Source: Syntrophomonadaceae bacterium (GTDB lineage: Bacteria > Bacillota > Syntrophomonadia > Syntrophomonadales > Syntrophomonadaceae). Taken from it: a stretch of DNA of 32,746 nt. The notes under the pieces were generated by a model, which saw only the letters and a program-made list of their open reading frames with translations, made no database searches and was not told the origin of the DNA. Location of the stretch: positions 1 to 32,746 of the forward strand of contig JAQUXM010000021.1 of the NCBI GenBank assembly GCA_028692415.1, in the 5' to 3' direction. The position numbers and the translations under genes are program-made. Below are positions 36 through 14,789 of this stretch, piece after piece (position 1 is the first letter of the stretch; each line of letters starts with the position of its first letter).

Positions 36-1145
36 ATGGATAGACTCAAACCGTTTAATGATTTAAAACCGATAAGTCGGCTGGAGGTAGAGGAAAACAA
101 GGCGCTATTGAAGCAGGCCGAGGACACCCGTGTTGCTATCGAAATATTAAATTATGAGATTAATTCCCTCCCAAATCCGTCTATTCTATTGGATACCCTA
201 TCATTGCAGGAGGCCAAGGCCAGTAGCAACATAGAAAATATTTTCACCACCAATGATGATTTATATAGAGGCATTGTTTTTGATAGCTTCACTGCCGAAG
301 CCAAAGAAGTTTCCCGATATAAAGATGCTCTTTTTATAGGATTCAACAACCTGAAGGAAAAAGGCATTTTGTCTATTAGCGATATTGAGTCCATTAACGA
401 GCCGGTGAACAAAAGACAGCGGGGTATAAGAGCAAATTTACCGGAGTTTGAAAGTAGTTATACCCGAATAGCCAATGTATCCAACGGCCAAAACGAAATA
501 CTATATACACCGCCCCACGGCAAGGAATTACTAAATAAATTACTGGTGGATATGCTCGAGTATGTCTATGATGATGAGATGTTTCCCGCCCATCCCCTGG
601 TAAAGATAGCCCTGGCGCACTACCAATTCGAGAGCATTCATCCTTTTTATGATGGTAATGGTCGTACCGGCAGAATACTCAATATTTTGCTTCTATGCCA
701 GAAGGGATATTTAAGCTATCCGATTCTTTATGCCAGCTCTTACATAATAAAAAATAAAAATGAATATTATGCCCTTTTGCAAATTTGCAGGCAAGAAGAT
801 AATTACCCATTATTTATTAAATATATGCTGAGTTCCTTCGAGACAACTGCTAAAAAAACCTTGCAAATGGTAAACAACATAAAAAGTCTTATGGGAAAAT
901 ACTCTGATGAAGAATTTCTAAAAACCCTTAGGGGACAGAAACCAGTCTTGCGCCAGGTTATGGAGCTTATTTTTAAAAAGGTATATATAAGAATTGAAGA
1001 CCTAGTTGAATTAGGAGTCCATCGCCAGACCGCATCCAGCTATTTGCAGCAGTTGGTTGACCAAGGCCTGTTGCAGGAAGAAAAAATACAGAGAGATAAA
1101 GTATTTAAGAATATAGAGTTATTAAAATTGTTCGAAGGAGAATAA
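36..1145 (+). CDS. Fic family protein (Fic/DOC AMPylase-like), class II type
   Basis: 369-aa ORF with canonical Fic motif HPFYDGNGRTGR and an N-terminal SSNIEN matching the inhibitory (S/T)xxxE(G/N) motif; winged-helix-like C-terminus. Confidence 0.93.
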   Translation: MDRLKPFNDLKPISRLEVEENKALLKQAEDTRVAIEILNYEINSLPNPSILLDTLSLQEAKASSNIENIFTTNDDLYRGIVFDSFTAEAKEVSRYKDALFIGFNNLKEKGILSISDIESINEPVNKRQRGIRANLPEFESSYTRIANVSNGQNEILYTPPHGKELLNKLLVDMLEYVYDDEMFPAHPLVKIALAHYQFESIHPFYDGNGRTGRILNILLLCQKGYLSYPILYASSYIIKNKNEYYALLQICRQEDNYPLFIKYMLSSFETTAKKTLQMVNNIKSLMGKYSDEEFLKTLRGQKPVLRQVMELIFKKVYIRIEDLVELGVHRQTASSYLQQLVDQGLLQEEKIQRDKVFKNIELLKLFEGE

Positions 1146-1148
1146 GGG

Positions 1149-2876
1149 ATGATTAATCAAGCCGACATCAATGCCAAAGTCAACCTGGTCACTAAAATCG
1201 CCAACAAACTTCGCGGTCCCTATACTTCTGAAAAATACGGCAACGTTATTATACCCATGTCGATTCTCCGGCGTTTTGACTGTGTCCTGGAGAGTAAAAA
1301 CCAGAAAATAAAAAAGATTCTTAAAAAGTTTGAGAAACTCCAAGTGGATGGAAAGCTCATCGAACAGGCAGTACTGAAAGAATGTGGAGTGCCTTTCTAC
1401 AATAAAAAATGCGTTAGCTTTGAAGCCTTAATCGGTGACAGCGATAATATCAACGCCAACTTTATCGAGTTTATTACGTCCTATTCCCCCAGCATAGAAA
1501 ACATCTTAAAAGGTCTTAAATTCAAAGAAGAAGCAGAATTCATGATTAAAAAAGGTATCCTCTTTGAAGTAGTCAAAGCCTTTTCGGAAGTCGATTTTCA
1601 CCCTGAAAGTACGGATCAGCTGACTATGGGTTATGTTTTTGAAGAAATCATAAGAACCTATAAATCAAATGCCGAGGCCGGTGATCATTATACACCCCGC
1701 GAAGTCATTGAGCTCTGCGTCGAATTGATGATGGCGGAAAATGTGAATGAGCTAGACAAAGAAGGCAAAATCATCAGAATCTATGACGGTTGCTGTGGAA
1801 CAGGGGGAATGCTTACCGTGGCCAAAAGGAAGCTTAACGATATGATCGGCACCAGTGGACGGGTGCGCCTATTCGGGCAGGATAACAATCCTGAAGCCTA
1901 TGCGGTGTGTTGTGCCGAAATGCTTATGCTGGGTGAGGATGCCAAAAACATCTTTGAGGGCAACACCCTGACCGAAGACCATTTAAAAGGGGAGAGGTTC
2001 GACCTGCTTATTACCAATCCTCCCTTTGGAGTGGAGTGGAAAACAGAAAAAACTATTGTGGAAAGAGAACGCAGCAGCAGCAACAATCGCTTTGTGGCAG
2101 GGCTACCAAGAGTCAGCGACGGGCAACTGCTATTCCTGCAAAATCTGCTGGCCAAAGCTGAAAATGATGCGAGAATCGCCATTATACTCAACGGTTCCCC
2201 TCTATTTTCCGGTGACGCAGGCAGCGGGGAAAGCGAGATCAGGCGCTATGTTATGGAAAACAATCTGCTGGAAGCCATTGTGGCTCTGCCTGACCAGATG
2301 TTTTATAACACCGGAATCTATTCATATATCTGGATACTATCGAAAAGCAAATTAAAAAGGCGGGATAAAAAGGTTCAGTTAATTAATGCCGTAAGCTTTT
2401 ACGATGAACAGAAGCCCAAATCTCTGGGCAACAAGCGTAAATATATTTCCTCCCAACACCGGGATAGAATCGTCCGGCTTTACCGCGACTTCGAGGAGAA
2501 TGAACATTCCAAAATATATGACGCCGCCCACTTCGGCTATAACAAGGTAGTGGTGGAGCGTCCCAAAAAAGACGAAGACGGCCAGCCTATTCTTAAAAAA
2601 GGTGCACTGCAAGCGGATGCCTCCCTGCGGGATACGGAAAATATTCCGCTCAAAGAGGACATAGATGAATACTTCCGGCGGGAAGTATTGCCCTATGTGC
2701 CGGATGCCTGGATTGATTATGACAAAACCAAGGTCGGCTACGAGATCCCCTTTAACAGGTATTTTTATAAATACACCGCACCCCGGAAGGCTGATGAGAT
2801 ACTCGCTGAAATCATGGTGATTGAGGATGATATTAAGGATACCATTTCTGCACTTCTGGGCCGGGTGAATCCTTGA
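1149..2876 (+). CDS. hsdM: Type I restriction-modification system DNA methyltransferase subunit M
   Basis: 575-aa ORF with SAM motif region YDGCCGTGGML and catalytic NPPFG motif, N-terminal HsdM-like helical region, followed directly by HsdS. Confidence 0.95.
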   Translation: MINQADINAKVNLVTKIANKLRGPYTSEKYGNVIIPMSILRRFDCVLESKNQKIKKILKKFEKLQVDGKLIEQAVLKECGVPFYNKKCVSFEALIGDSDNINANFIEFITSYSPSIENILKGLKFKEEAEFMIKKGILFEVVKAFSEVDFHPESTDQLTMGYVFEEIIRTYKSNAEAGDHYTPREVIELCVELMMAENVNELDKEGKIIRIYDGCCGTGGMLTVAKRKLNDMIGTSGRVRLFGQDNNPEAYAVCCAEMLMLGEDAKNIFEGNTLTEDHLKGERFDLLITNPPFGVEWKTEKTIVERERSSSNNRFVAGLPRVSDGQLLFLQNLLAKAENDARIAIILNGSPLFSGDAGSGESEIRRYVMENNLLEAIVALPDQMFYNTGIYSYIWILSKSKLKRRDKKVQLINAVSFYDEQKPKSLGNKRKYISSQHRDRIVRLYRDFEENEHSKIYDAAHFGYNKVVVERPKKDEDGQPILKKGALQADASLRDTENIPLKEDIDEYFRREVLPYVPDAWIDYDKTKVGYEIPFNRYFYKYTAPRKADEILAEIMVIEDDIKDTISALLGRVNP

Positions 2877-4177
2877 TGGCTGTAAAAATGAAAGATAGCG
2901 GTATTGAATGGATCGGGGAGATCCCGGAGGGCTGGAAAATTTCAAAAGTAAAATATTTTTATCAGTCACAACTGGGAAAGATGCTACAGCCATCCCAACA
3001 AAGTAATAATGAATCACTGGAAAAGTATCTTTGTGCCATTAATATAACTTGGGATGGAATAAAAAATCAAAATGAAATAAAAGAGATGTGGTTTAATGAA
3101 CGGGAAAAGAAGATATTTAGTGTAAAACAAGGTGACTTGCTAGTTTCTGAGGGCGGAGATGCTGGACGAGCATGTATTTGCGATATAGATTTCCCATGCT
3201 ATATCCAGAATGCGGTTCATAGAGTTAGAGCATTGGAAAAAGCAACTAATGAGTATCTTTATTATTGGATGTATGTGTTAAAAGCAATCGGATATATCGA
3301 TTTACTATGTAACAAAGCTACGATTATGCATTTTACACAAGACAAATTATTAAACATTGATTTCCCGGTTGCGCCAATTGCTGCCCAAGGAAGAATTGCA
3401 GGCTATCTAGATCAAAAATGTAGCGACATAGATAAAGTTATCTCTGCCAAACAAAGGCAGAATGAATTGCTGAGGGAGCAACGCCAGTCTATTATTTATG
3501 AAGCCGTTACCAAAGGACTGGATAAGAATGTCAAGTATAAAGATAGTGGAATAGAGTGGATCGGGGGTATGCCATATACATGGAAATGTAGAAGGCTAAA
3601 ATACCATGTAACCATAAATCCTACCACCACACTCATTAAAGAGTTTCTGGATGATGATACAGAGGTATCCTTTGTTCCAATGGAAAACCTTCAAAATGGC
3701 TACCATTATATTTCGGCGATACCTTTTTCAAAAGTAAAAAATGGATATACTGTTTTTGTAGAAGGAGATATTTTACTTGCAAAAGTGACTCCGTGTTTTG
3801 AAAATGGGAATATTGCTATAGCTAAAGATCTAATAAAGGGAATAGGTTTTGGCTCAACAGAAATTCTAGTTATAAGGTGCCGCAGCATCAACCCACGTTT
3901 CACATATTATTGTTTACAGAATCCAACGTTTAAGGAAAGAGCTGTTGCTGAAATGTATGGAGTTGCAGGATTGAAAAGGATTCCTCCATTATTTGTTGAG
4001 AATAGCTTTTATCCTTTCCCCACTCCCCCCGTTCAGAAATGTATTGCCGATTTTCTCGACCAAAGGTGTGCCGAGATTGATCGAATTTTAAATACTAATA
4101 ATCAGATAATTGAAAAATTGAAAGAATACCGGCGGAGCATTATATATGAAGCGGTCACAGGTAAAATCGAAGTATAA
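2873..4177 (+). CDS. hsdS: Type I restriction-modification system specificity subunit S
   Basis: 434-aa ORF overlapping hsdM by 4 nt (ATGA-type); two half-subunits each starting KDSGIEWIG..P..WK and ending RR/RQSIIYEAVT. Confidence 0.95.
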   Translation: MMAVKMKDSGIEWIGEIPEGWKISKVKYFYQSQLGKMLQPSQQSNNESLEKYLCAINITWDGIKNQNEIKEMWFNEREKKIFSVKQGDLLVSEGGDAGRACICDIDFPCYIQNAVHRVRALEKATNEYLYYWMYVLKAIGYIDLLCNKATIMHFTQDKLLNIDFPVAPIAAQGRIAGYLDQKCSDIDKVISAKQRQNELLREQRQSIIYEAVTKGLDKNVKYKDSGIEWIGGMPYTWKCRRLKYHVTINPTTTLIKEFLDDDTEVSFVPMENLQNGYHYISAIPFSKVKNGYTVFVEGDILLAKVTPCFENGNIAIAKDLIKGIGFGSTEILVIRCRSINPRFTYYCLQNPTFKERAVAEMYGVAGLKRIPPLFVENSFYPFPTPPVQKCIADFLDQRCAEIDRILNTNNQIIEKLKEYRRSIIYEAVTGKIEV

Positions 4178-4235
4178 ACCATGCTGAAGAGTATTATCGA
4201 TAAAACCGAGAGAGCTTATATGGTGAGGTGAAGAA

Positions 4236-5246
4236 ATGAACTTGGTAACGCATAGCAAGATACTCTTATACCAGACAGACGAAGGCAAAGTAATTGTTGA
4301 TGTTTATTTTTTTAATGAAAATTTTTGGCTGACTCAAAAGGCGATGAGCGAACTTTTCGCAGTAAACATTCCTGCGATTTCGAAACACTTAAAAAATATT
4401 TATGAAACAGGTGAGCTTGAAAGAAACGCAACTGTTTCCATTGTGGAAACACTTCGAAACGAAGGGGACAGAGAAATTAGCCGCCTGCTTGAATATTATA
4501 ACCTTGATGCAATTATTGCAGTTGGCTATCGGGTCAATTCCAAAAAAGCTACGCAGTTTAGAATATGGGCGACAACTACTTTGAAGGAATACATTGTCAA
4601 GGGATTTGTACTTAATGATGAAATGCTTAAAAACGGCAGGCCCTTTGGCAGGGACTATTTCGAAGAACTGCTGGAACGTATCCGTGAAATACGGGCCTCG
4701 GAGCGCAGAGCTTATCAGAAGATTGCCGATGTATTTGAACAGTGCAGCAGCGATTACAGTGCAAAAGCCGATGAAACTAGAACTTTTTACGCATTTGTAC
4801 AGAATAAAATGCACTTTGCAATAACCGGACAGACTGCAGCTGAGATAATACACACTAGAGCTGACAGCGAACATCCGACCATGGGTTTAACTACCTGGAA
4901 GGCTGCCCCGCAAGGAAAGATCATTAAAAATGATGTTAAGGTTGCGAAGAACTATCTGAACGAAAATGAGCTAGACCGCCTCAACAGAATTGTTAATATG
5001 TACATAGACTATGCCGAGTTCCAGGCTCTCAACCAGGAACTTATGACTATGAAGGATTGGCTTGATATCACTGACGAATTTCTGAAGTTTAATCGGCAGG
5101 AAATATTAAATAATGCTGGTAAAGTAAGCCATTTAGATGCTATGGTAAAAGCAGAGCGGGAATATGAAAAATTCAGGGTAAAGCAGGACAAGGAATACAT
5201 ATCGGACTTTGACCGGGTAACCGAAAAATATCTAAAAGGGAAATAA
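4236..5246 (+). CDS. RhuM family protein (virulence_RhuM)
   Basis: 336-aa ORF; N-terminus ILLYQTDEGKVIVDVYFFNENFWLTQKAMSELFAVNIPAISKHLKNIYETGEL is typical of RhuM; often found inside hsd loci. Confidence 0.88.
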   Translation: MNLVTHSKILLYQTDEGKVIVDVYFFNENFWLTQKAMSELFAVNIPAISKHLKNIYETGELERNATVSIVETLRNEGDREISRLLEYYNLDAIIAVGYRVNSKKATQFRIWATTTLKEYIVKGFVLNDEMLKNGRPFGRDYFEELLERIREIRASERRAYQKIADVFEQCSSDYSAKADETRTFYAFVQNKMHFAITGQTAAEIIHTRADSEHPTMGLTTWKAAPQGKIIKNDVKVAKNYLNENELDRLNRIVNMYIDYAEFQALNQELMTMKDWLDITDEFLKFNRQEILNNAGKVSHLDAMVKAEREYEKFRVKQDKEYISDFDRVTEKYLKGK

Positions 5247-5332
5247 AATTAGGACATGCAGCACATTCCCTGTGCATACGAGTGTCTCTACCAACAAAAA
5301 ATGCTTTAATTGGATTTATTAGAGGTGAGCAA

Positions 5333-8266
5333 ATGGCGGAAGAAGATTTAAGGGAAAACCCTTTCCGTGATGAAATTTATGATTATCTTTTAAGTATGGG
5401 CTATTGTCAGAGCAAAAGAGCCGATTATGATTATCAGAATGCGATTGATAAGGCCAAGCTCTTTGAGTTCCTGGAAAGCTCGCAAAAAGAGCAGCTTAAG
5501 CTATTTAAGGCCACGCACGGAAAAGGTTATAAGGAACGGTTTATCAAGCTCTTAAACGATAAAATCAATTCCCGGGGTCTGCTTCAAGCTCTCCATGAAC
5601 AGATTGAGGACTATAGTAGCAGCACCAAGTTTTTTCTGGCCTTTTTTAAGCCTAACCTGGAAGAGATGAACGATGGATTTGGGCTTTATGATAGAAATAT
5701 CCTTTCGGTTCACCGCGAATTTGCCTACGAGGATAAGGAAGACAGCTTCCGGGTTGACCTGGCTATATTCCTGAACGGAATTCCTATTGTAATGATTGAA
5801 CTGAAAAAGCAAACTGCCGGGCAAAGGGCAGGTTTTGAGGGCACCAAGCAATTTAAGTATACTCGTAATCCTGATGAGCCTATTTTCAGCTTCAACCGGA
5901 GGACGCTGGTTTACTTGGCTATGGACGAATTCGAGGCTTTCGTGTCTACTCGGCTGGACAAAAAGGATACCTTATTTCTTCCTTTCAACAAGGGGGCAGA
6001 GGATGAGGGGGCCGGTAATCCAATTGTGGAGGGCCAACACTGCACTCATTATGTATGGGAAGAAATTTTACGGAAGGATATGCTCTTAAAGATTATCCGC
6101 GAATTTATGTTTATTGATGATGAAGGCATTATGATATTTCCCCGGTACCATCAGCTTGACGCGGTGTTAAAGATAGAAGCAGATGTGAGGGCAATCGGAA
6201 TCGGTGGCAGATATCTGGTATGGCACAGTGCCGGCAGCGGTAAGACCAAAACCATTGCCTGGCTTGCCAAGCGGCTGATTAATCTTCCTGAGATTGATAC
6301 GGTTGTGGTCATAAGTGACCGTAATGTTATTGACAGCCAGCTAGGAAATGAAATCACTACCGTTGACGGCAAGAAAGGCGTTGCCAGATGGATAGAAAAT
6401 AACTCTGCAGAGCTATTGAAAGCAATTCAGGCCGGCGGTTATATTGTTGTCACCACCCTGCAAAAATTCCCCTTTATTCTCCAACAGATGGAAGAAAAGC
6501 AGAAACGGAAATTTGCCATTATTATCGATGAAGCACATTCTTCAGCAGCGGGCAAGACCTTGTCAAAGGTGTCGGAAACCTTGTCTGGCAAGTCGCTCAA
6601 GGATGCCGTTGTAAGTGATGAGGCTTATGAGGAGTACGAAGATAGCCAGGGATTGCTGCTTAAGCAAGAAAGCCGGATAAAATCAAGCAGCAACATAAGT
6701 TATTTTGCTTTTACCGCTACACCTAAGACCGAAACCATGGAGCTTTTTGGCAGCAGAAAAGAAATGGGCAAGCAGTATTTTCATAAATATGCTATGAAGC
6801 AAGCCATACAGGAGGGATTTATTCTTAATCCCCTGGCCGCTTATACCACTTATAATGAAAAATTTGAGATCAAGAAGAAAAAGGACGATAACACCGAATA
6901 CGAAAGCAGCAGTGCATCGGCTGCGATTCTCAACTATATTACCAGCTCGGATGAGGTCATTGATATAAAGACTGAGATCATTATGAAGGACTTCATATCC
7001 AAAAGAATACAATGGCTGAGCGGGAAGGGGAAGGCTATGCTTATTACGCCTTCTCGCAAACATGCGGTTTGTTATAAGCTGGCTATTGATAAGTATATAG
7101 AAAAAAACGGCTATGCTTTTAAAGCAGTTGCTGCTTTTACCGGAACCATTGAGATTGAAGGGATAAAATATACCGAGGAAAATATGAATGCAGTCTTTAA
7201 GGAAAAGGATATTAAGAAGCTTATTAGCAACAACGAAAATGTGAGGATTATCGTTGTTGCCGACAAGCTGCAAACGGGGTTTGATGAAACTAAACTATGT
7301 ATTCTTTATGTGGATAAAAAGCTTAATAGCGCTGTTAAAGCAGTTCAAACCCTATCCCGTATCAACCGGGCTTCAGCAGGGAAAAAAACCTTTATTCTCG
7401 ATTTTGTTAATAAAGCGGAGGAAATTAAAGCCTATTTTAAACCATATTTAGGCGGCGAACTTTATCTGCCCCCAGAAAACGAAACAGATCCCAATCTACT
7501 CTTTGTCAAACGGGATAAATTATTGGATTATTATATATTTACAATTGATCAGGCAGATCGGGCTTATGCCTTGATCAAGGATGGCAATAAACACTCCGGT
7601 GAACTGACCGCTCTCTTTGCTCAAATGAAACAAAACTTTAACAAGCTTAAAAAAGATCAACAGAAGTTGTTTACTGCAGAAATATCAAAATTTGTTAAGC
7701 TTTTCTACTATATATCCACTGTTTATAACACTTGGAATAATGATATGAAGCGCTTGGCGGTATTCCTTGATGCTTTACACAATGTGCTGTATCAAAAAGC
7801 CAGTGATACTAAAATAAACCCCGATGAGCTGGTTGAACTGGTCGTTTATTCAGCCGAAAAGGCTGTGGAGGATGAAAACTTACTCGGTGATACCATGGAA
7901 TATTCGTTCGATAAGATCTCAACAGAGTCAGTCATAAAAGAGAAAAGCTACTCGCTGATTGATGAAATAATTGAGCGAATCAATACCCGTTATGGGAATT
8001 ATGAAAATGCTTCCAAGGAGTTCAATGAGATTGTTGATACTCTCAGTAACGACAATGACATGATCGTAAATATCAGGGATAGCTCACCCAGTGCATATGA
8101 GGCCGAAGCCATAGACAAAATCGGGCAAATCTTCGTTAATGGAATATTATCATCCGATGAAGCTCGCTCACAATTCTTTGCCCAAATCAGCAGTGATAAG
8201 GATGTTTTAAGGACGCTGGCCAAAGCAGTAATAAGAAGAATTCAAGATGGGCTAATAGCGAGTTGA
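5333..8266 (+). CDS. hsdR: Type I restriction endonuclease subunit R
   Basis: Nuclease motif D..IVMIELKKQ, Walker A SAGSGKTKT, DEAH box, FTATP, QTLSRINRAS helicase motif. The track begins at GTG 5282, but ATG 5333 has an AGAGGTGAG Shine-Dalgarno and is the better start. Confidence 0.95.
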   Translation: MAEEDLRENPFRDEIYDYLLSMGYCQSKRADYDYQNAIDKAKLFEFLESSQKEQLKLFKATHGKGYKERFIKLLNDKINSRGLLQALHEQIEDYSSSTKFFLAFFKPNLEEMNDGFGLYDRNILSVHREFAYEDKEDSFRVDLAIFLNGIPIVMIELKKQTAGQRAGFEGTKQFKYTRNPDEPIFSFNRRTLVYLAMDEFEAFVSTRLDKKDTLFLPFNKGAEDEGAGNPIVEGQHCTHYVWEEILRKDMLLKIIREFMFIDDEGIMIFPRYHQLDAVLKIEADVRAIGIGGRYLVWHSAGSGKTKTIAWLAKRLINLPEIDTVVVISDRNVIDSQLGNEITTVDGKKGVARWIENNSAELLKAIQAGGYIVVTTLQKFPFILQQMEEKQKRKFAIIIDEAHSSAAGKTLSKVSETLSGKSLKDAVVSDEAYEEYEDSQGLLLKQESRIKSSSNISYFAFTATPKTETMELFGSRKEMGKQYFHKYAMKQAIQEGFILNPLAAYTTYNEKFEIKKKKDDNTEYESSSASAAILNYITSSDEVIDIKTEIIMKDFISKRIQWLSGKGKAMLITPSRKHAVCYKLAIDKYIEKNGYAFKAVAAFTGTIEIEGIKYTEENMNAVFKEKDIKKLISNNENVRIIVVADKLQTGFDETKLCILYVDKKLNSAVKAVQTLSRINRASAGKKTFILDFVNKAEEIKAYFKPYLGGELYLPPENETDPNLLFVKRDKLLDYYIFTIDQADRAYALIKDGNKHSGELTALFAQMKQNFNKLKKDQQKLFTAEISKFVKLFYYISTVYNTWNNDMKRLAVFLDALHNVLYQKASDTKINPDELVELVVYSAEKAVEDENLLGDTMEYSFDKISTESVIKEKSYSLIDEIIERINTRYGNYENASKEFNEIVDTLSNDNDMIVNIRDSSPSAYEAEAIDKIGQIFVNGILSSDEARSQFFAQISSDKDVLRTLAKAVIRRIQDGLIAS

Positions 8267-8410: not shown

Positions 8411-8461
8411 ATGGACTATCGCGACCGGAAGGAACTGAAAGTGAAGGGGTATCATGAGTAA
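8411..8461 (+). CDS. Short leader ORF (MDYRDRKELKVKGYHE) overlapping the start codon of the methyltransferase gene
   Basis: ATG 8411; stop TAA 8459-8461 overlaps the downstream ATG at 8454 in another frame. Only 16 codons, so it may be chance. Confidence 0.25.
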   Translation: MDYRDRKELKVKGYHE

Positions 8462-11400
8462 AGCGTTAGATACTCTATATAAGGATTTGGATTTCCAGAG
8501 CGGCTCATTATTGACAGCATCTGATAAACCAACTTCTGAGATAAGCATTGATGATTGGCTGGAAAAGGGAGAATGGTTGGCTGCGGCTAAACGTGCAGGT
8601 GCAGAAAAGGTGTTTTTTGTTGAAAACAATCCAGTTGCCGTCTTTGCCGAGTGCGGTGCTGACCATCTTGAAAAAGAACGAGTTTTTAATCGCATATGGT
8701 GTCTTGGTCGCCCAAGATTGTTATTCTTGGCTTCGCCCGGCGAAATATCTGTGTTGGATCTGGCGCAAAAACCTATCAATTTATCTGAACCTGAAGAAAA
8801 TAGATCCGAAGAACAGCGGCTGGTCAAATCACTGAAAACACTTTACCAAATTGAAAAAGTGGCACAGGTACTTCAACAGTTTCACCGGGATAATATTGAA
8901 TCGGGAAGAATATTTGGAGAAATTCGATTTGGAGATGTGAAAAACCGGGCAGATAAAGCTCTCATACGTGATTTAAAAATAGTCCGGCGCGAGTTGATTC
9001 AAGCCGGGTTGTCAGGTCAAAAGATTAAATTTGCGCACTCGTTAATTGGCCGTTCAATTTTTATTCGTTATCTTGAAGATCGGGGGATATTGACACAGGA
9101 GTACTTTCTAAAAATTGCCCGCCAGAATTCCGAATGGATGGGACTCCTCACTAATCAGTTACCCCGTATAGGCTATGACGCTATTTTTGAATACCAGGCC
9201 TCTTACCCCCGGGTACTGGAACACAAAGCATTTACATATGCCTTATTCAAGGCACTGGCTCAGGATTTCAACGGAGACATGTTCCCTGGTGTAGATGAGG
9301 AGGAACAGGTTGTTACACAAAAACACCTGAGCTTGATCCAAGATCTCCTCTACGGTGATGTCGGAGTTCAAAAGCAGCTCTTTTTTTATTCGTACCGCTT
9401 TGACATTGTTCCCCTTGATCTCATCAGCTCAATTTATGAGGAGTTCTATGATCCATCCACCAGTGATGATGAGAAGCAAAACAAGGCAAGGCAAGACGGC
9501 GCTTATTATACACCTGCAGTACTGGCGGAATTCGTAATATCCCGAGTATTAACGTTTAAGGAATTGCAAATGACTCCCCGGGTACTTGATCCCGCTTGTG
9601 GGTCCGGGATTTTTTTGGTTGAATCTTTTAGGCGGATTGTGCGTTATGAGTGGCACAAAAATCAAAACCGACCGAATTTTGATACTCTTAAACAAATTCT
9701 CGCTACACAAATTGCCGGTATTGAGGTGAATGAGGAAGCTGCCAGAATTACAGCATTCAGCCTATATCTCGCCATGCTGCATTATCTCGATCCTCCCGCA
9801 ATTACAGAACAAATCAAACAAGGCAACAAGTTGCCCAACCTTTTGGCATCAGAAGTTAAATCAAAGAACCACTTGAATTGTGTTTGGGTAGGGAACGCCT
9901 TCAATACGGCAGCGATAGAATCAAATCCGCTATGGGCTTCCAGTTTTGGCCAACATTGTGCAGATATTATTGTAAGTAATCCACCCTGGGGAGCACCGGG
10001 GAAAAAAGCGGATGACGCAACAAAAGCCCGCGAAAGAGTGATGCTGGAATGGTGCCATATAAACAAAAAGCCTGTTGGTGACAAAGAGCCGTCACAGGCC
10101 TTCCTCTGGCGGGCTCTTGATTTTCTAAAAGACGGCGGGAAGGCTGTAGTGTTGGTTTCTGCCGGAGTCTTGTTTAAACACAGTACCACAACCCGGGCGT
10201 TTCGTGAGCAATGGATGGACAGGGTCAGGCTCCTTGAAGTATGTAACTTTACACACGTGAGAAAGTTTTTCTTTAAGGGAGCAGTTTCTCCCTTTGTAAT
10301 AATATGTTTCGTTAAAGATAAGCAGAATGATTTTTCAGTTAAATACTGGTCGGCCAAACAAGTCATAGCTTTAAAAGAAACCCAGGCAGTGCTTCTTTCC
10401 AAATATGATATTCATATGCTACGAGATGAGCAACTGGCGTCGAGTGAGTTATGGAAAAGTTACTGGTTCGGACGATTGGCGGATAGACAGTTCATTAGAT
10501 GGCTCCAATCAAAAAATCAACTTAGAAAATATGTGGATTGTAACAATTCGGGTCGCGGATATGAATTGGCATCAAGGGCTTTTGAAGCGGAAAGATTGCA
10601 ATCGTTTGAATCACTCGTGAAAATAGAGTCTCGTTATGAAACACCGGTGTTTACTTCTCCGCCCGAACGCGTTCATCGTTTCGGTGCCCAAGGTGCTTAC
10701 AGGGGACTACGGGTGATTGTTAATGAAGGTATTTCTGAAAACACTCAGCCTCAAGGAATAATTGTTGCCCAATTTAGTGATATTCCTTTTTGTTACTACA
10801 GGAGTGTCTATGGACTGAAACTGTCTGAACAGGAAGAGTGGGGACACAAGCTACTCCTGGGGATTATTTGGTCTTCTTTGGCCAGATATTATTTCTTTAT
10901 GACATCTGCGAACTGGGGCCTTTGGCATCATAAATTGTTGCTTGATGAGTTGCTGCAACTTCCTATTATCTTTAATAAAGAGAGCCCGATATCAAGAAAA
11001 ATCATCAATATAGTCGATAAACTCCGCAATTATCACCCGCAAGAACAAGACTTGCTAAATCCTGTCGGTGTGTCAGAAGCTGAGATCGAGGCTCAACGGC
11101 GAATTTGGGAGAAAGAACTGGATGAGGCGGTGTTTGAACTCTACAATCTGAATGAGGAGCAAAAAGACCTGATTCGAGATTGTTGCGAGGTTACCCTTCC
11201 GTTTTTCTACAAACCTTTCAATAGCGTAGGAATCATGCCTGCAGTACAGGATAATGATCTATCCTGGATTGAAAAATATGTACAGATATTTGCCCGGCGC
11301 TGGAATGCCTATCTTGAGGATGATATGGAAATGAGAGCGGAAGTGCACGTTGGAGCTCATGGAAATATGGTGGCTGTTGAGTTTTTTCCAGCCGATAAGG

Positions 11401-11660
11401 CAGATCCATGGAATCTACATCCTAAAAATGATTCCTGGCAGTATGTCTTGGAGCAAATTGGGAAAGCCCTTCTGAAACCAATGGAAACATCCCGGATTCT
11501 TGTGGATGGCATTGTACATGTTGTCTCCGATGAGTCTGTTATTGTCATAAAACGAAATGAAAGGCGTTTTTGGACGCGCAGCCTTGCTCGAGAAGATGCA
11601 GATGCGACTTTATGCAAACGTATGATTGAATCCGGATCAGAAGATGGGGGGAAGGGCTAA
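8454..11660 (+). CDS. Large N6-adenine DNA methyltransferase-like protein (Eco57I/type IIG-like MTase core with additional N- and C-terminal regions)
   Basis: 1068-aa ORF with SAM motif DPACGSGIFLVESF and catalytic NPPWG; SD AAGGGG upstream of ATG. Confidence 0.88.
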   Translation: MSKALDTLYKDLDFQSGSLLTASDKPTSEISIDDWLEKGEWLAAAKRAGAEKVFFVENNPVAVFAECGADHLEKERVFNRIWCLGRPRLLFLASPGEISVLDLAQKPINLSEPEENRSEEQRLVKSLKTLYQIEKVAQVLQQFHRDNIESGRIFGEIRFGDVKNRADKALIRDLKIVRRELIQAGLSGQKIKFAHSLIGRSIFIRYLEDRGILTQEYFLKIARQNSEWMGLLTNQLPRIGYDAIFEYQASYPRVLEHKAFTYALFKALAQDFNGDMFPGVDEEEQVVTQKHLSLIQDLLYGDVGVQKQLFFYSYRFDIVPLDLISSIYEEFYDPSTSDDEKQNKARQDGAYYTPAVLAEFVISRVLTFKELQMTPRVLDPACGSGIFLVESFRRIVRYEWHKNQNRPNFDTLKQILATQIAGIEVNEEAARITAFSLYLAMLHYLDPPAITEQIKQGNKLPNLLASEVKSKNHLNCVWVGNAFNTAAIESNPLWASSFGQHCADIIVSNPPWGAPGKKADDATKARERVMLEWCHINKKPVGDKEPSQAFLWRALDFLKDGGKAVVLVSAGVLFKHSTTTRAFREQWMDRVRLLEVCNFTHVRKFFFKGAVSPFVIICFVKDKQNDFSVKYWSAKQVIALKETQAVLLSKYDIHMLRDEQLASSELWKSYWFGRLADRQFIRWLQSKNQLRKYVDCNNSGRGYELASRAFEAERLQSFESLVKIESRYETPVFTSPPERVHRFGAQGAYRGLRVIVNEGISENTQPQGIIVAQFSDIPFCYYRSVYGLKLSEQEEWGHKLLLGIIWSSLARYYFFMTSANWGLWHHKLLLDELLQLPIIFNKESPISRKIINIVDKLRNYHPQEQDLLNPVGVSEAEIEAQRRIWEKELDEAVFELYNLNEEQKDLIRDCCEVTLPFFYKPFNSVGIMPAVQDNDLSWIEKYVQIFARRWNAYLEDDMEMRAEVHVGAHGNMVAVEFFPADKADPWNLHPKNDSWQYVLEQIGKALLKPMETSRILVDGIVHVVSDESVIVIKRNERRFWTRSLAREDADATLCKRMIESGSEDGGKG

Positions 11661-12373
11661 TGGCACGACATGGCATTCCTTCATTCGTGTACTTATGGCA
11701 AAAGCATGAGGCCCTTTATGTCGGTATATTTATAATTGCCTTGCAAAGGCTTTCGGATAGCATATTTGACGTTTCCAACGAGGACAAAATTTCTGAAAGA
11801 CTTCGTATTATTCTGAACGAGGTTTGTTTTGAAGAAAGCCAAAAAAAGAATTGCGAAATCAGCACTCCGGACTGGGAAAAACCAAATCAACCAGCAACCA
11901 GTAGCGAATTGAAGGGAGGCAAGATTAGATATCGGCCTGATTTTACATGCACACGTATTAATCCTTTTGCAGAATGTTCTGAGGAGCACGAAATACAATT
12001 CCATGTTGAATGTAAACGTTTGGGATATCCTACTAGTCCCACTTGGATTTTGAATAGAAATTATGTAACGAAGGGAATCAAACGTTTTGACAGTATAAAA
12101 CATGAATATGGGAAACGAGCATCTTCGGGTATGATGGTTGGTTACATCATCGGCATGTCTCCTGAAATAATACTGGATGAAGTAAACACTTATCAAAATA
12201 AGTATTGCCCGGAAAACCCTGTTATTGAATTGGAATGTGTCAGAAAAAATATTCAGCAATATCGGCAAAAACTTCAGCGGAGAGAATTGAAACCCGAAAT
12301 GTTTAAATTGATTCACCTTTGGGTAGAGCTGAGGAACCAAGTAGTCGAAGAGACTCGATCTACCAATAGATAA
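11660..12373 (+). CDS. Putative PD-(D/E)XK-type restriction endonuclease, coupled to the upstream methyltransferase
   Basis: 237-aa ORF sharing TAATG stop/start overlap with the upstream gene; RYRPDFTC ... EIQFHVECKRLG fits PD-(X)n-ExK, followed by a conserved-looking ASSGMMVGYIIG strand. Confidence 0.6.
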   Translation: MARHGIPSFVYLWQKHEALYVGIFIIALQRLSDSIFDVSNEDKISERLRIILNEVCFEESQKKNCEISTPDWEKPNQPATSSELKGGKIRYRPDFTCTRINPFAECSEEHEIQFHVECKRLGYPTSPTWILNRNYVTKGIKRFDSIKHEYGKRASSGMMVGYIIGMSPEIILDEVNTYQNKYCPENPVIELECVRKNIQQYRQKLQRRELKPEMFKLIHLWVELRNQVVEETRSTNR

Positions 12374-12456: not shown

Positions 12457-12636
12457 CGAGTTACGCCACTGAATTGGAAGTCGCGTAAGGGGCCAAAACC
12501 CCCTTTGAAGGTTCGCCCCCCATTACCTACTTGGCTAATCGGAGCAGTTGTAATACTGATTGCCGCATGGTATCTGGCGGGCTATTTTAGCTCCAGGGTA
12601 GCAGTTTGGTTTAATTATGAACTGGTTGAAGCTTAA
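12457..12636 (+). pseudogene. C-terminal remnant of a membrane-protein gene (no start codon)
   Basis: Open frame reading ...KPPLKVRPPLPTWLIGAVVILIAAWYLAGYFSSRVAVWFNYELVEA*; hydrophobic segment, preceded in frame by TAG with no plausible start. Not in the ORF track. Confidence 0.4.
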
Positions 12637-14008
12637 GTGGTTGGCTGCACTTGGGGACATAATGACCATGGCTTTCGGAGAACCTATAATTCCTTTTATA
12701 TTGTCCCTTGCTGGCTATTATAGTTTTTAAAGAGTTCATGAGCCGGTCTATCTCGCTCTTGGTGTTGTAAGCTGCCAGGCTGATACGCACCATGCCTGGA
12801 AGCTGGGCCGGGTTTTGTTCCAGGTAAGCTGATACCTTTTCCTGGTTTTCATCAATCTCCAGCAACTTCCGCACATAGGGTTGAGCACAGAAACATCCCG
12901 TTCTTACCCCGATGCCACTCTCATAGCACAATATGGAACCCAGCAGACTATGGCCGATGCCTGCCAGGTTAAAGGTTATTACACCTACACGGGGAAAAGC
13001 ACCATACATTTTAACCCCGGGCAATTTAAGGATTTCATTCCAGGCATAATGAGTCAAGTCGTCTTCATATTGCGCCAGTTTCTGCATATCAAGTTTCTGC
13101 AGGTATTTTATGGTTTGAGCCAGGGCGAAAGCCCCTATTACATTGGGGGAGCCGGCTTCTTCACGGTCAGGCAGGCCGCCCCAGTATATGTCCTTGCTAG
13201 TGACCATACTTACCGTGCCGCCTCCCGTATATTCGGGGGCTCCCTTCAGAAAAGTGCTCTTCGGGCCAATCAAGACCCCGCTGCCAAAAGGAGCATAAAG
13301 CTTGTGCCCGGAAAAAGCCAGGTAGTCGATATGCCGGGGGTTAGCAGCCGGTTTCATATCAATGGGCTGATGGGGTATAAGCTGGGCGGCATCCACCAGG
13401 ATTTTTGCCTGGTACTCGTGGGCCATTTCCGCCAGATCATGAATGGGGTTCAGGTGCCCGGTTACATTGGAAGCGCCGCAGACGGTCAATAATTTGACTT
13501 TGGGATAGTTGTGTCTGAGTTTGGCTTCCACATCCAGCAAATTCAATTGACCCTGCTGATTGACCCCCGCGTATTCTACCCGCTTATGCCGTCGCCAGGG
13601 AAGGTCATTGGAATGGTGTTCCATAACCGTGCTAATTACTATGTCACCTGTTGTCAAAGCCAGGCGATAGGACAATTTATTAATAGCTTCAGTCGTATTT
13701 TTTAGCATTATGACCGTATCATTATCCATATCCGCTTTGACAAATTTGCCTGCAATCTCGTGGCAATTGTCGTAAACCTGTGATGAGAGGAGAGATTTAT
13801 ATCCGGTGCCCCGGTGAACCCCGGAATACCAACCGAGGAAGTCGTTAATTTCATGTAATACCGGATGCAGTGCCGGGGTGCTGGCCGCATTGTCAAAATT
13901 AATATACTGCAAACGCTTTTTGCGGAGAGTGGGTACCTTATGCTTAATGCCTACGATGTCCCTGCGAAACCGGGCCGGTTCAAATTCCTTATCCTTGATC
14001 AGAAACAC
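12611..14008 (-). CDS. Class V aminotransferase / cysteine desulfurase-like PLP enzyme
   Basis: 465-aa ORF: INFDNAASTPALHPV, PLP-lysine motif AFSGHKLYAPFGSGVLIG, and active-site-loop-like GVRTGCFCAQPY. Start is GTG with a weak SD. Confidence 0.88.
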   Translation of the reverse strand: MFLIKDKEFEPARFRRDIVGIKHKVPTLRKKRLQYINFDNAASTPALHPVLHEINDFLGWYSGVHRGTGYKSLLSSQVYDNCHEIAGKFVKADMDNDTVIMLKNTTEAINKLSYRLALTTGDIVISTVMEHHSNDLPWRRHKRVEYAGVNQQGQLNLLDVEAKLRHNYPKVKLLTVCGASNVTGHLNPIHDLAEMAHEYQAKILVDAAQLIPHQPIDMKPAANPRHIDYLAFSGHKLYAPFGSGVLIGPKSTFLKGAPEYTGGGTVSMVTSKDIYWGGLPDREEAGSPNVIGAFALAQTIKYLQKLDMQKLAQYEDDLTHYAWNEILKLPGVKMYGAFPRVGVITFNLAGIGHSLLGSILCYESGIGVRTGCFCAQPYVRKLLEIDENQEKVSAYLEQNPAQLPGMVRISLAAYNTKSEIDRLMNSLKTIIASKGQYKRNYRFSESHGHYVPKCSQPLKLQPVHN

Positions 14009-14061
14009 ATCCCAAAAGTAAACGCTTTAGATATACTATGAACATCAAGGCATTTTGGACA

Positions 14062-14226
14062 CTAGTACTCTGTAACGTCTAAAAGTTTAGGTTATCCGCC
14101 GAGAAAAATTTTCGCAGGGGAAGGCGGAGGAATGAGTAATACTGGACCTATTTCGATTGACGACAACGAAGCCCTGTGGAAATTTGGCCGGCGGGAATGA
14201 AAGTTTTAGGCGTTACAGAGTACTAG
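14062..14226. mobile_element. MITE / internally deleted IS derivative, 165 bp, with ~23-bp terminal inverted repeats
   Basis: Left end CTAGTACTCTGTAACGTCTAAAA, right end TTTTAGGCGTTACAGAGTACTAG (22/23 inverted match); internal hairpin CCGCC..GAAAAATTTTC..GGCGG and a 22-codon ORF MSNTGPISIDDNEALWKFGRRE. Confidence 0.75.
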
Positions 14227-14236
14227 AAGCCCGGGT

Positions 14237-14716
14237 TTAAATAAAGAGCTGCATATTGGAATCAAGTGCGTCCTTAAGGTATTCTTTGACATCTACCACC
14301 TTGGCTTCGGGAATCAGTTCTTCAGATTTAAACCCCATGATCTCCAGAGAAAGCTGGCAGACATAAAAATTGACTCCCTTTTTGCGCGCCCCATCCAGAA
14401 AGTCCTTTAAGCCTGGGGTTTTGTCTGCTTTCATCATATCTTGCAGCATAGCTTTGCCAATGCCGCCCATATTCATTTTGGACAGCGGCAGTTGTTCCGC
14501 TCCCTTGGGAGTAAGGGTGGCGAAGAGTTTTTCATAAGCGCTTTTGTCTTCCAGACTCATTTTGTCAGGATCGCGCAAGAGCATAAGGCCCCAGAAAGCA
14601 AAAAACATCGTAACCCCTATTTCCATCTCGCGTGCGGCATTGGCAATAATTAATGCGGCCAGGGCTTTATCATAATCGCCGCTGAACATTAGCAGGTTTA
14701 TGTGCCGGTTTTCCAT
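14237..14716 (-). CDS. DsrE/DsrF-like family protein
   Basis: MENRHINLLMFSGDYDKALAALIIANAAREMEIGVTMFFAFWGLMLL... typical DsrE/DrsH-like fold sequence; the track start is 14731, ATG 14716 has a GGGGG stretch at SD distance. Confidence 0.8.
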   Translation of the reverse strand: MENRHINLLMFSGDYDKALAALIIANAAREMEIGVTMFFAFWGLMLLRDPDKMSLEDKSAYEKLFATLTPKGAEQLPLSKMNMGGIGKAMLQDMMKADKTPGLKDFLDGARKKGVNFYVCQLSLEIMGFKSEELIPEAKVVDVKEYLKDALDSNMQLFI

Positions 14717-14789
14717 CAATAATACCCCCAAAATATAGTTGCTTGGGCCGTCAAAAAAAGTGAATGGCTGCGTTAATCAATAACTCTGT

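Follow-up and report, generated by a model that had tools for sequence, protein, structure and literature searches.

The window analysed here is a stretch of 32,746 nucleotides from a Syntrophomonadaceae bacterium (contig JAQUXM010000021.1) that contains two adjacent genes, a 1068-amino-acid (aa) open reading frame (ORF) at 8454-11660 and a 237-aa ORF at 11660-12373, both on the + strand. We analyse this pair as the large and small subunits of a candidate restriction-modification (R-M) system that consists of a methyltransferase and a putative nuclease. The junction of the two genes reads ggggggaagggcTAATGg, in which the stop and start codons overlap by one base (TAATG). Given this overlap and the ggggggaaggg sequence upstream of it, translational coupling of the two genes is expected. 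The two ORFs and their TAATG overlap are exactly those reported in a preliminary description of this DNA. The motifs that it had named are present as well: DPACGSGIFL (aa 379-388) and NPPW (aa 509-512) in the large protein, and RPDF (containing D94) and HVECKRL (E117-x-K119) in the small protein. The features of the pair are the following.

8454-11660, + strand: large subunit, gamma-class N6-adenine methyltransferase with type IIG/IIL architecture, 1068 aa, intact (ORF, Pfam, PADLOC and AlphaFold2 [AF2])
8454-8828, + strand: degenerate N-terminal nuclease-like domain, aa 1-125 (hhalign to fused type IIG enzymes; D, E and K not conserved)
8844-9473, + strand: helical spacer from the degenerate domain to the methyltransferase core, aa 131-340 (AF2 secondary structure; within the 297-column hhalign match)
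9588-9608, + strand: DPACGSG, S-adenosylmethionine (SAM)-binding motif, aa 379-385 (D379, G383 and G385 invariant in 90 homologues)
9978-9989, + strand: NPPW, catalytic amino-methyltransferase motif, aa 509-512 (N509 and P511 in 90/90, P510 in 86/90)
10401-11153, + strand: presumed target-recognition region, aa ~650-900, hypervariable and swapped (identity drop; swaps in relatives)
11646-11656, + strand: strong Shine-Dalgarno-like sequence ggggggaaggg that precedes the small gene and lies within the end of the large gene (from the sequence)
11660-12373, + strand: small subunit, 237 aa, of a likely PD-(D/E)XK-type nuclease family that lacks a database model (ORF, library scans and AF2)
11780-11782, + strand: E41, acidic and invariant, located in the first helix of the core (90/90 homologues)
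11939-11941, + strand: D94, located where strand 95-100 begins and presumed to bind metal (89/90 homologues; AF2)
12008-12016, + strand: E117-C118-K119, E-x-K motif in strand 111-121 (E in 88/89, K in 89/89; a PDDEXK_9 match of homologue L097 spans the same positions)
12314-12316, + strand: H219, invariant histidine in a C-terminal strand (87/87 homologues)

The large ORF matches the Pfam models N6_Mtase (4e-20), MmeI_Mtase (4e-15) and Eco57I (2e-12), which bears out the earlier assignment of an Eco57I-type amino-methyltransferase core, and it also matches REase_MTase_IIG of PADLOC. As in type IIG enzymes, the core is a gamma-class amino-methyltransferase with a conserved SAM motif (DPACGSG) and a conserved NPP of the NPPY/F/W motif. 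The AF2 model of the large subunit has a predicted local distance difference test score (pLDDT) of 90.4, and its matches in the PDB are CamA, BrxX/PglX, MmeI, BpuSI and DrdV. In two plasmid copies (L009:4638-8332 on pRSB223 and L011:4458-8175), the large subunit is spread over two successive ORFs ahead of the nuclease, as a result either of frameshifts or of a genuine separation of the C-terminal part.

The N-terminal 348 aa of the methyltransferase family align with the N-terminus of fused type IIG enzymes over 297 columns (hhalign 99.5%, E 3e-22), and this alignment places the window's EKVFFVENNPVAVFAECG opposite ADYSFNLDGKPMFFVEAK of the fused enzymes. At the type IIG catalytic columns, D is found in 37, E in 23 and K in 7 of the 90 sequences, so there is no conserved triad; P60 and W82 are retained near the lost catalytic columns. 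As judged by this alignment, the built-in nuclease domain of the large subunit is catalytically dead. A working N-terminal nuclease in the methyltransferase was rejected on the same alignment-based counts, and loose D..ExK-like patterns occur in the first 200 aa of 29/90 sequences. Of the closest methyltransferases outside the family (L120-L129), most are ordinary type IIG fusions that have an intact N-terminal PDYxF...FFxEaK nuclease. The methyltransferase family of the pair is set apart from 19 other enzymes with a tree support of 0.94, which is compatible with one origin of the family.

The small subunit belongs to a family that no library describes. It has no match above noise in Pfam, PADLOC, NCBIfam or PHROGs, and no library model matches its 75 homologues consistently. 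The D...E.K motif pointed out in the preliminary description recurs throughout the family at the frequencies listed above, together with E41 and with Y135 (89/89), and such conservation of D94, E117, K119 and E41 across homologues indicates that the motif is not due to chance. The family thus has the D...(D/E)xK catalytic motif of PD-(D/E)XK nucleases. The AF2 model, built from an alignment with 75 family members, is confident (pLDDT 92.8; predicted template modelling score 0.91) and contains helix 41-63, strands 95-100 and 111-121, helices 131-143, strand 156-163 and helix 168-182. These elements follow a PD-(D/E)XK-like order: the second strand comes after D94, and the third carries E-x-K, with the first strand of the usual core reduced to two residues (71-72). 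In addition, the small protein of L097 matches Pfam PDDEXK_9 (6.7e-5), just under the gathering score, through residues 73-123, which cover D91 and E110-x-K112 in register. From its motif, order of elements and weak profile matches, the small protein is likely to be a PD-(D/E)XK nuclease. The fold proposed earlier agrees with a confident model that has a PD-(D/E)XK-like order of elements, but the model has no significant PDB match, and a Foldseek search of BFVD with the model also returned no significant match.

Could the small protein instead be a structural or regulatory partner that resembles a nuclease without being one? The lack of a significant structural match in the PDB and the sub-threshold sequence matches to known nucleases would fit such a partner. 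However, the invariant E, D and E-x-K, together with Y and H, form an active-site pattern in 90 highly diverged sequences, and a non-catalytic partner is not expected to keep such a pattern. We find this explanation hardly credible. An origin of the small protein as a detached type IIG nuclease domain was also rejected, given an hhalign score of 19% and the lack of a match to the N-terminus of the methyltransferase itself. The small nuclease of one close relative (L030:9199-9897) has Y at the position where D94 is otherwise nearly invariant, with the remainder of the protein and the neighbouring methyltransferase intact; by its sequence, this allele is a probable natural loss of cutting.

No match to the 237-aa protein was returned by a direct tblastn search of plasmids and phages or by a scan of viral contigs. 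Because the small protein diverges too fast for direct search, the methyltransferase was taken as bait. At the plasmid loci thus obtained, a 910-1075-aa 'N-6 DNA methylase' is followed by a 215-255-aa 'hypothetical protein', mostly with an overlap of a few bases. When the alignment of the plasmid methyltransferases was run against 84,980 species genomes, it yielded at least 80 loci, with identities from 68% down to 23%, in many bacterial phyla and in archaea; the pair is also carried by plasmids and prophages. A hidden Markov model of the small protein matches directly downstream of the methyltransferase in 77 of the 80 genome loci listed. The other three are L073, where the contig ends inside the methyltransferase, L095, where the contig ends 346 bp past the methyltransferase within a partial nuclease match, and L052, with a broken methyltransferase. 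The nuclease is therefore adjacent at 77/77 of the listed loci where the methyltransferase is intact and the contig leaves space for a downstream gene. In viral contigs, the nuclease is present at 8/8 loci whose methyltransferase exceeds 400 bits on the family model and has room downstream, and downstream of 0/71 other Eco57I-type methyltransferases (<260 bits). Adjacency of the two genes, which the preliminary description had put forward as a check, is thus conserved.

The search that started from the nuclease profile gave the same pairing. This profile matched in 5/399 genomes from the phylum of the window, in 16/396 from Bacteroidota (to which Porphyromonas gulae belongs) and in 7/399 from Pseudomonadota (to which Vreelandella belongs). 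A family methyltransferase lies immediately upstream of 14/16 Bacteroidota matches and 7/7 Pseudomonadota matches, and in both Bacteroidota exceptions the nuclease gene is broken. The methyltransferase is upstream of the nuclease at three further loci of the window's phylum (L108-L110), and G079 has the pair split over contigs. The pairing is near-obligate, and in the loci examined the nuclease partners one methyltransferase clade only. Two contigs of one Planctomycetales bin (L069 and L072) carry similar copies of the pair, with identities of 0.88 in the methyltransferase core, 0.90 in the recognition region and 0.81 in the nuclease.

No third gene recurs at 104 loci, apart from helix-turn-helix (HTH) transcription regulators, which belong to several unrelated families and lie immediately before the pair at ~20 of them. 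Small regulators of this kind are found, frequently with a 4-bp overlap with the large gene, at L098, L072, L069, L006, L013, L014, L113, L005, L094, L012 and L080, which suggests repeated recruitment of controller genes. A third conserved gene of the module was rejected on this basis. The lack of a conserved partner bears on an anti-phage or anti-plasmid system in which the methylation state licenses a less specific nuclease, as in BREX-like, MADS-like or abortive systems, without cutting at a fixed distance. BrxX/PglX is among the PDB matches of the large subunit, and Fic, TIR, SIR2, Shedu or AbiE genes lie near some loci. However, BREX and MADS require several genes, the NCBIfam models of both score far under their cut-offs here, and the nearest relatives and closest architecture are those of type IIG. 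Thus, we regard a system of this kind as distinctly unlikely. The pair is not part of a type I R-M system either: hsdM, hsdS and hsdR genes lie upstream in the window, but such neighbours do not recur at the 104 loci.

Does the nuclease read DNA by itself, or does it rely on the methyltransferase? The hypervariable region of the large subunit allows this question to be addressed. Between the window and its close relatives, identity is 0.29-0.44 at aa 681-800 and higher in most other blocks. The methyltransferases of L059 and L066 are ~0.9 identical up to aa 650, 0.23-0.44 at aa 700-950 and 0.96 at the end, and their nucleases are 0.74 identical. The L085/L092 and L062/L085 pairs show similarly clean swaps. 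The swapped regions are 0.27-0.37 identical, yet the nuclease remains ~70-75% identical. Conversely, the recognition region is kept in L087/L093 (0.78) with nucleases that are 0.44 identical, and it is kept in L081/L085 with strongly different nucleases. The partial correlation between the catalytic part of the nuclease and the recognition region is ~0 within the two clades tested, for pairs that are not independent. A nuclease that reads its own site should change along with the methyltransferase. These comparisons are suggestive of a nuclease that is decoupled from the recognition region, with specificity residing in the large subunit. The C-terminal part of the nuclease correlates with the methyltransferase N-terminal region (0.80) and core (0.79) more than the catalytic part does (0.65 and 0.50, respectively), which is compatible with docking of the C-terminal part on the methyltransferase body. 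A suspicion from single pairs that the nuclease C-terminus tracks the recognition region found no support in the partial correlations.

A conventional two-gene type II system, like M.TaqI and R.TaqI, would have a small protein that recognises its own site and a methyltransferase that merely protects it. The organisation as one methyltransferase gene and one nuclease gene agrees with such a system, the upstream HTH regulators resemble controller genes, and 237 aa would suffice for an independent enzyme, given that R.TaqI has 263 aa (PMC5587805) and a typical type IIP subunit has ~31 kDa (PMC4081073). However, the swaps and their converse described above do not fit a self-reading nuclease. Moreover, the methyltransferase retains the type IIG spacer and a dead nuclease domain, which M.TaqI lacks, and the nuclease partners a single methyltransferase clade. 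We therefore consider a conventional type II system unlikely.

Comparison with known systems places the large subunit close to type IIG/IIL enzymes such as MmeI, Eco57I, BpuSI and DrdV, with which it shares an N-terminal nuclease-like domain, a helical spacer, a gamma-class methyltransferase, a presumed recognition region and a C-terminal region. Its domain boundaries parallel those of MmeI (nuclease 1-155, spacer 156-300, methyltransferase 301-620, target recognition domain 621-825; PMC4833311). The pair should work like a type IIG enzyme. Type IIG enzymes, however, have an active nuclease in the same chain, whereas the fused domain of the pair is dead and the conserved site belongs to an unrelated-looking nuclease that the next gene encodes. 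According to reviews, restriction and modification in one chain are what defines type IIG (PMC4081073, PMC3874165), and the pair is therefore not a type IIG enzyme in the strict sense. The 'split type IIG' arrangement suggested earlier holds in that the system has two genes and is related to type IIG, but not in the sense of a simple split: a nuclease-homologous, dead domain is still present in the large protein, and the small protein is a different nuclease.

The REase_MTase_IIG models PDLC03623 and PDLC03603 of PADLOC match several large subunits nearly end to end (36-1018 of 1035 in L006), and two of eight members tested had no PADLOC match at 1e-30. This label denotes a one-gene enzyme, and none of the families in PADLOC, Pfam, NCBIfam and PHROGs contains the small subunit. 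PADLOC thus catalogues half of the system under a label that implies a nuclease the large subunit no longer has. Type IIP systems with gamma-class methyltransferases (TaqI, SalI and PstI) likewise combine a methyltransferase with a fused recognition domain and a separate nuclease gene. However, M.TaqI has neither the nuclease-like domain nor the spacer (PMC4833311), and TaqI-type nucleases read DNA themselves, whereas the identity of the nuclease in the pair is decoupled from the recognition region. In type IIT enzymes (BsrDI, BtsI and BspD6I), a small nuclease subunit also depends on a larger one for recognition (PMC4081073), but their large subunit cuts one strand and separate enzymes methylate, whereas the large subunit of the pair is a methylase without a conserved nuclease site. 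HVO_A0006 and HVO_A0237 of Haloferax volcanii were proposed as a split type IIG enzyme with nuclease and methylase encoded apart (PMC4389544). HVO_A0006 differs in that it is a nuclease-domain fragment from an ordinary type IIG fusion and lies 231 genes from its proposed partner, in a single case, whereas the pair has a distinct nuclease family adjacent to the methyltransferase in ~100 loci.

We consider it probable that the pair is a two-subunit R-M system derived from type IIG, in which the built-in nuclease is dead and a separate subunit, guided by the specificity of the methyltransferase, has taken its place. The C-terminal recognition region of the large subunit would direct it to an asymmetric site, where it would methylate adenine. 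The host would probably be protected by marking of one strand, as in type IIL enzymes, given the architecture and the lack of a second methyltransferase in the module. The N-terminal PD-(D/E)XK domain may have been retained as a structural or docking domain. The small nuclease would dock on the large subunit, probably via its C-terminal part, and cut DNA at a set distance from an unmethylated site. Two such complexes would probably dimerise before the cut, a mechanism put forward for single-site type IIG nucleases (PMC3874165, PMC4833311). Complex formation, cleavage, cut distance, one-strand protection and a role against phages are thus predicted properties of the pair.

Several observations weigh against this proposal. 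Pooled over clades, the partial correlation between nuclease and recognition region is ~0.4, again for pairs that are not independent. The recognition region is presumed from its variability and from its location at the position of the MmeI target recognition domain. The hhalign match of the small protein to the type IIG nuclease is weak, at 19%, although it is in register at D and E-x-K. A family member with fused methyltransferase and nuclease was not found. Foldseek against the PDB gave nothing significant for the small protein, with McrC as the best match (E 0.33) and PaqCI also listed. The weak McrC match and the many plasmid copies would accord with a modification-dependent, type IV-like nuclease or with a non-restriction role, such as regulatory methylation or plasmid maintenance, in which the nuclease acts on DNA other than an unmethylated target. 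However, an adjacent modification methylase in every copy would be needless for a type IV-like enzyme, the pairing is near-obligate, and no modified-base reader domain is apparent in the 237 aa. We judge this explanation to be very improbable.

We found no paper on the methyltransferase-nuclease pair in the open literature, with REBASE and subscription papers outside reach, and no library names it, in keeping with the earlier view that the pair is not a recognised named system. Databases cover the large half only, under a type IIG label that takes in neither the dead nuclease site nor the nuclease partner. Annotation would label the large gene as a one-gene 'type IIG restriction enzyme' despite its dead nuclease site, and the gene that probably encodes the actual cutter would remain a 'hypothetical protein', at ~100 sampled loci of bacteria, archaea, plasmids and prophages. 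In a broader reading, which we hold about as firmly as its negation, the pair represents an unnamed, widespread R-M class that arose when the built-in nuclease of a type IIG enzyme was lost and the dead domain turned into a docking platform for an exchangeable nuclease supplied in trans. Such a class would bridge fused type IIG enzymes and multi-subunit systems as a natural, modular intermediate, with independently swappable specificity and cutter. If confirmed, the two-subunit system derived from type IIG would add a two-gene architecture to the R-M classification, provide an evolutionary link between fused and multi-subunit restriction systems and offer enzymes with naturally separate specificity and cutting modules that are useful for engineering.

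The pair is present as a single copy in its genome (a 3.0-Mb bin, 92% complete, in which the window is contig 163). The adjoining genes at 12611-14731 (- strand) encode a class V aminotransferase, which is cysteine-desulfurase-like with weak SspA/DndA matches, and a DsrE-like protein. These genes probably serve ordinary sulfur metabolism, since no other Dnd or Ssp genes were seen. Immediately upstream of the pair, the window contains at 36-8266 an SoFic-like Fic-family gene followed by a type I R-M operon that consists of hsdM (1149-2876), hsdS (2873-4177) and hsdR (5282-8266), with a RhuM-family gene (4236-5246) between hsdS and hsdR.

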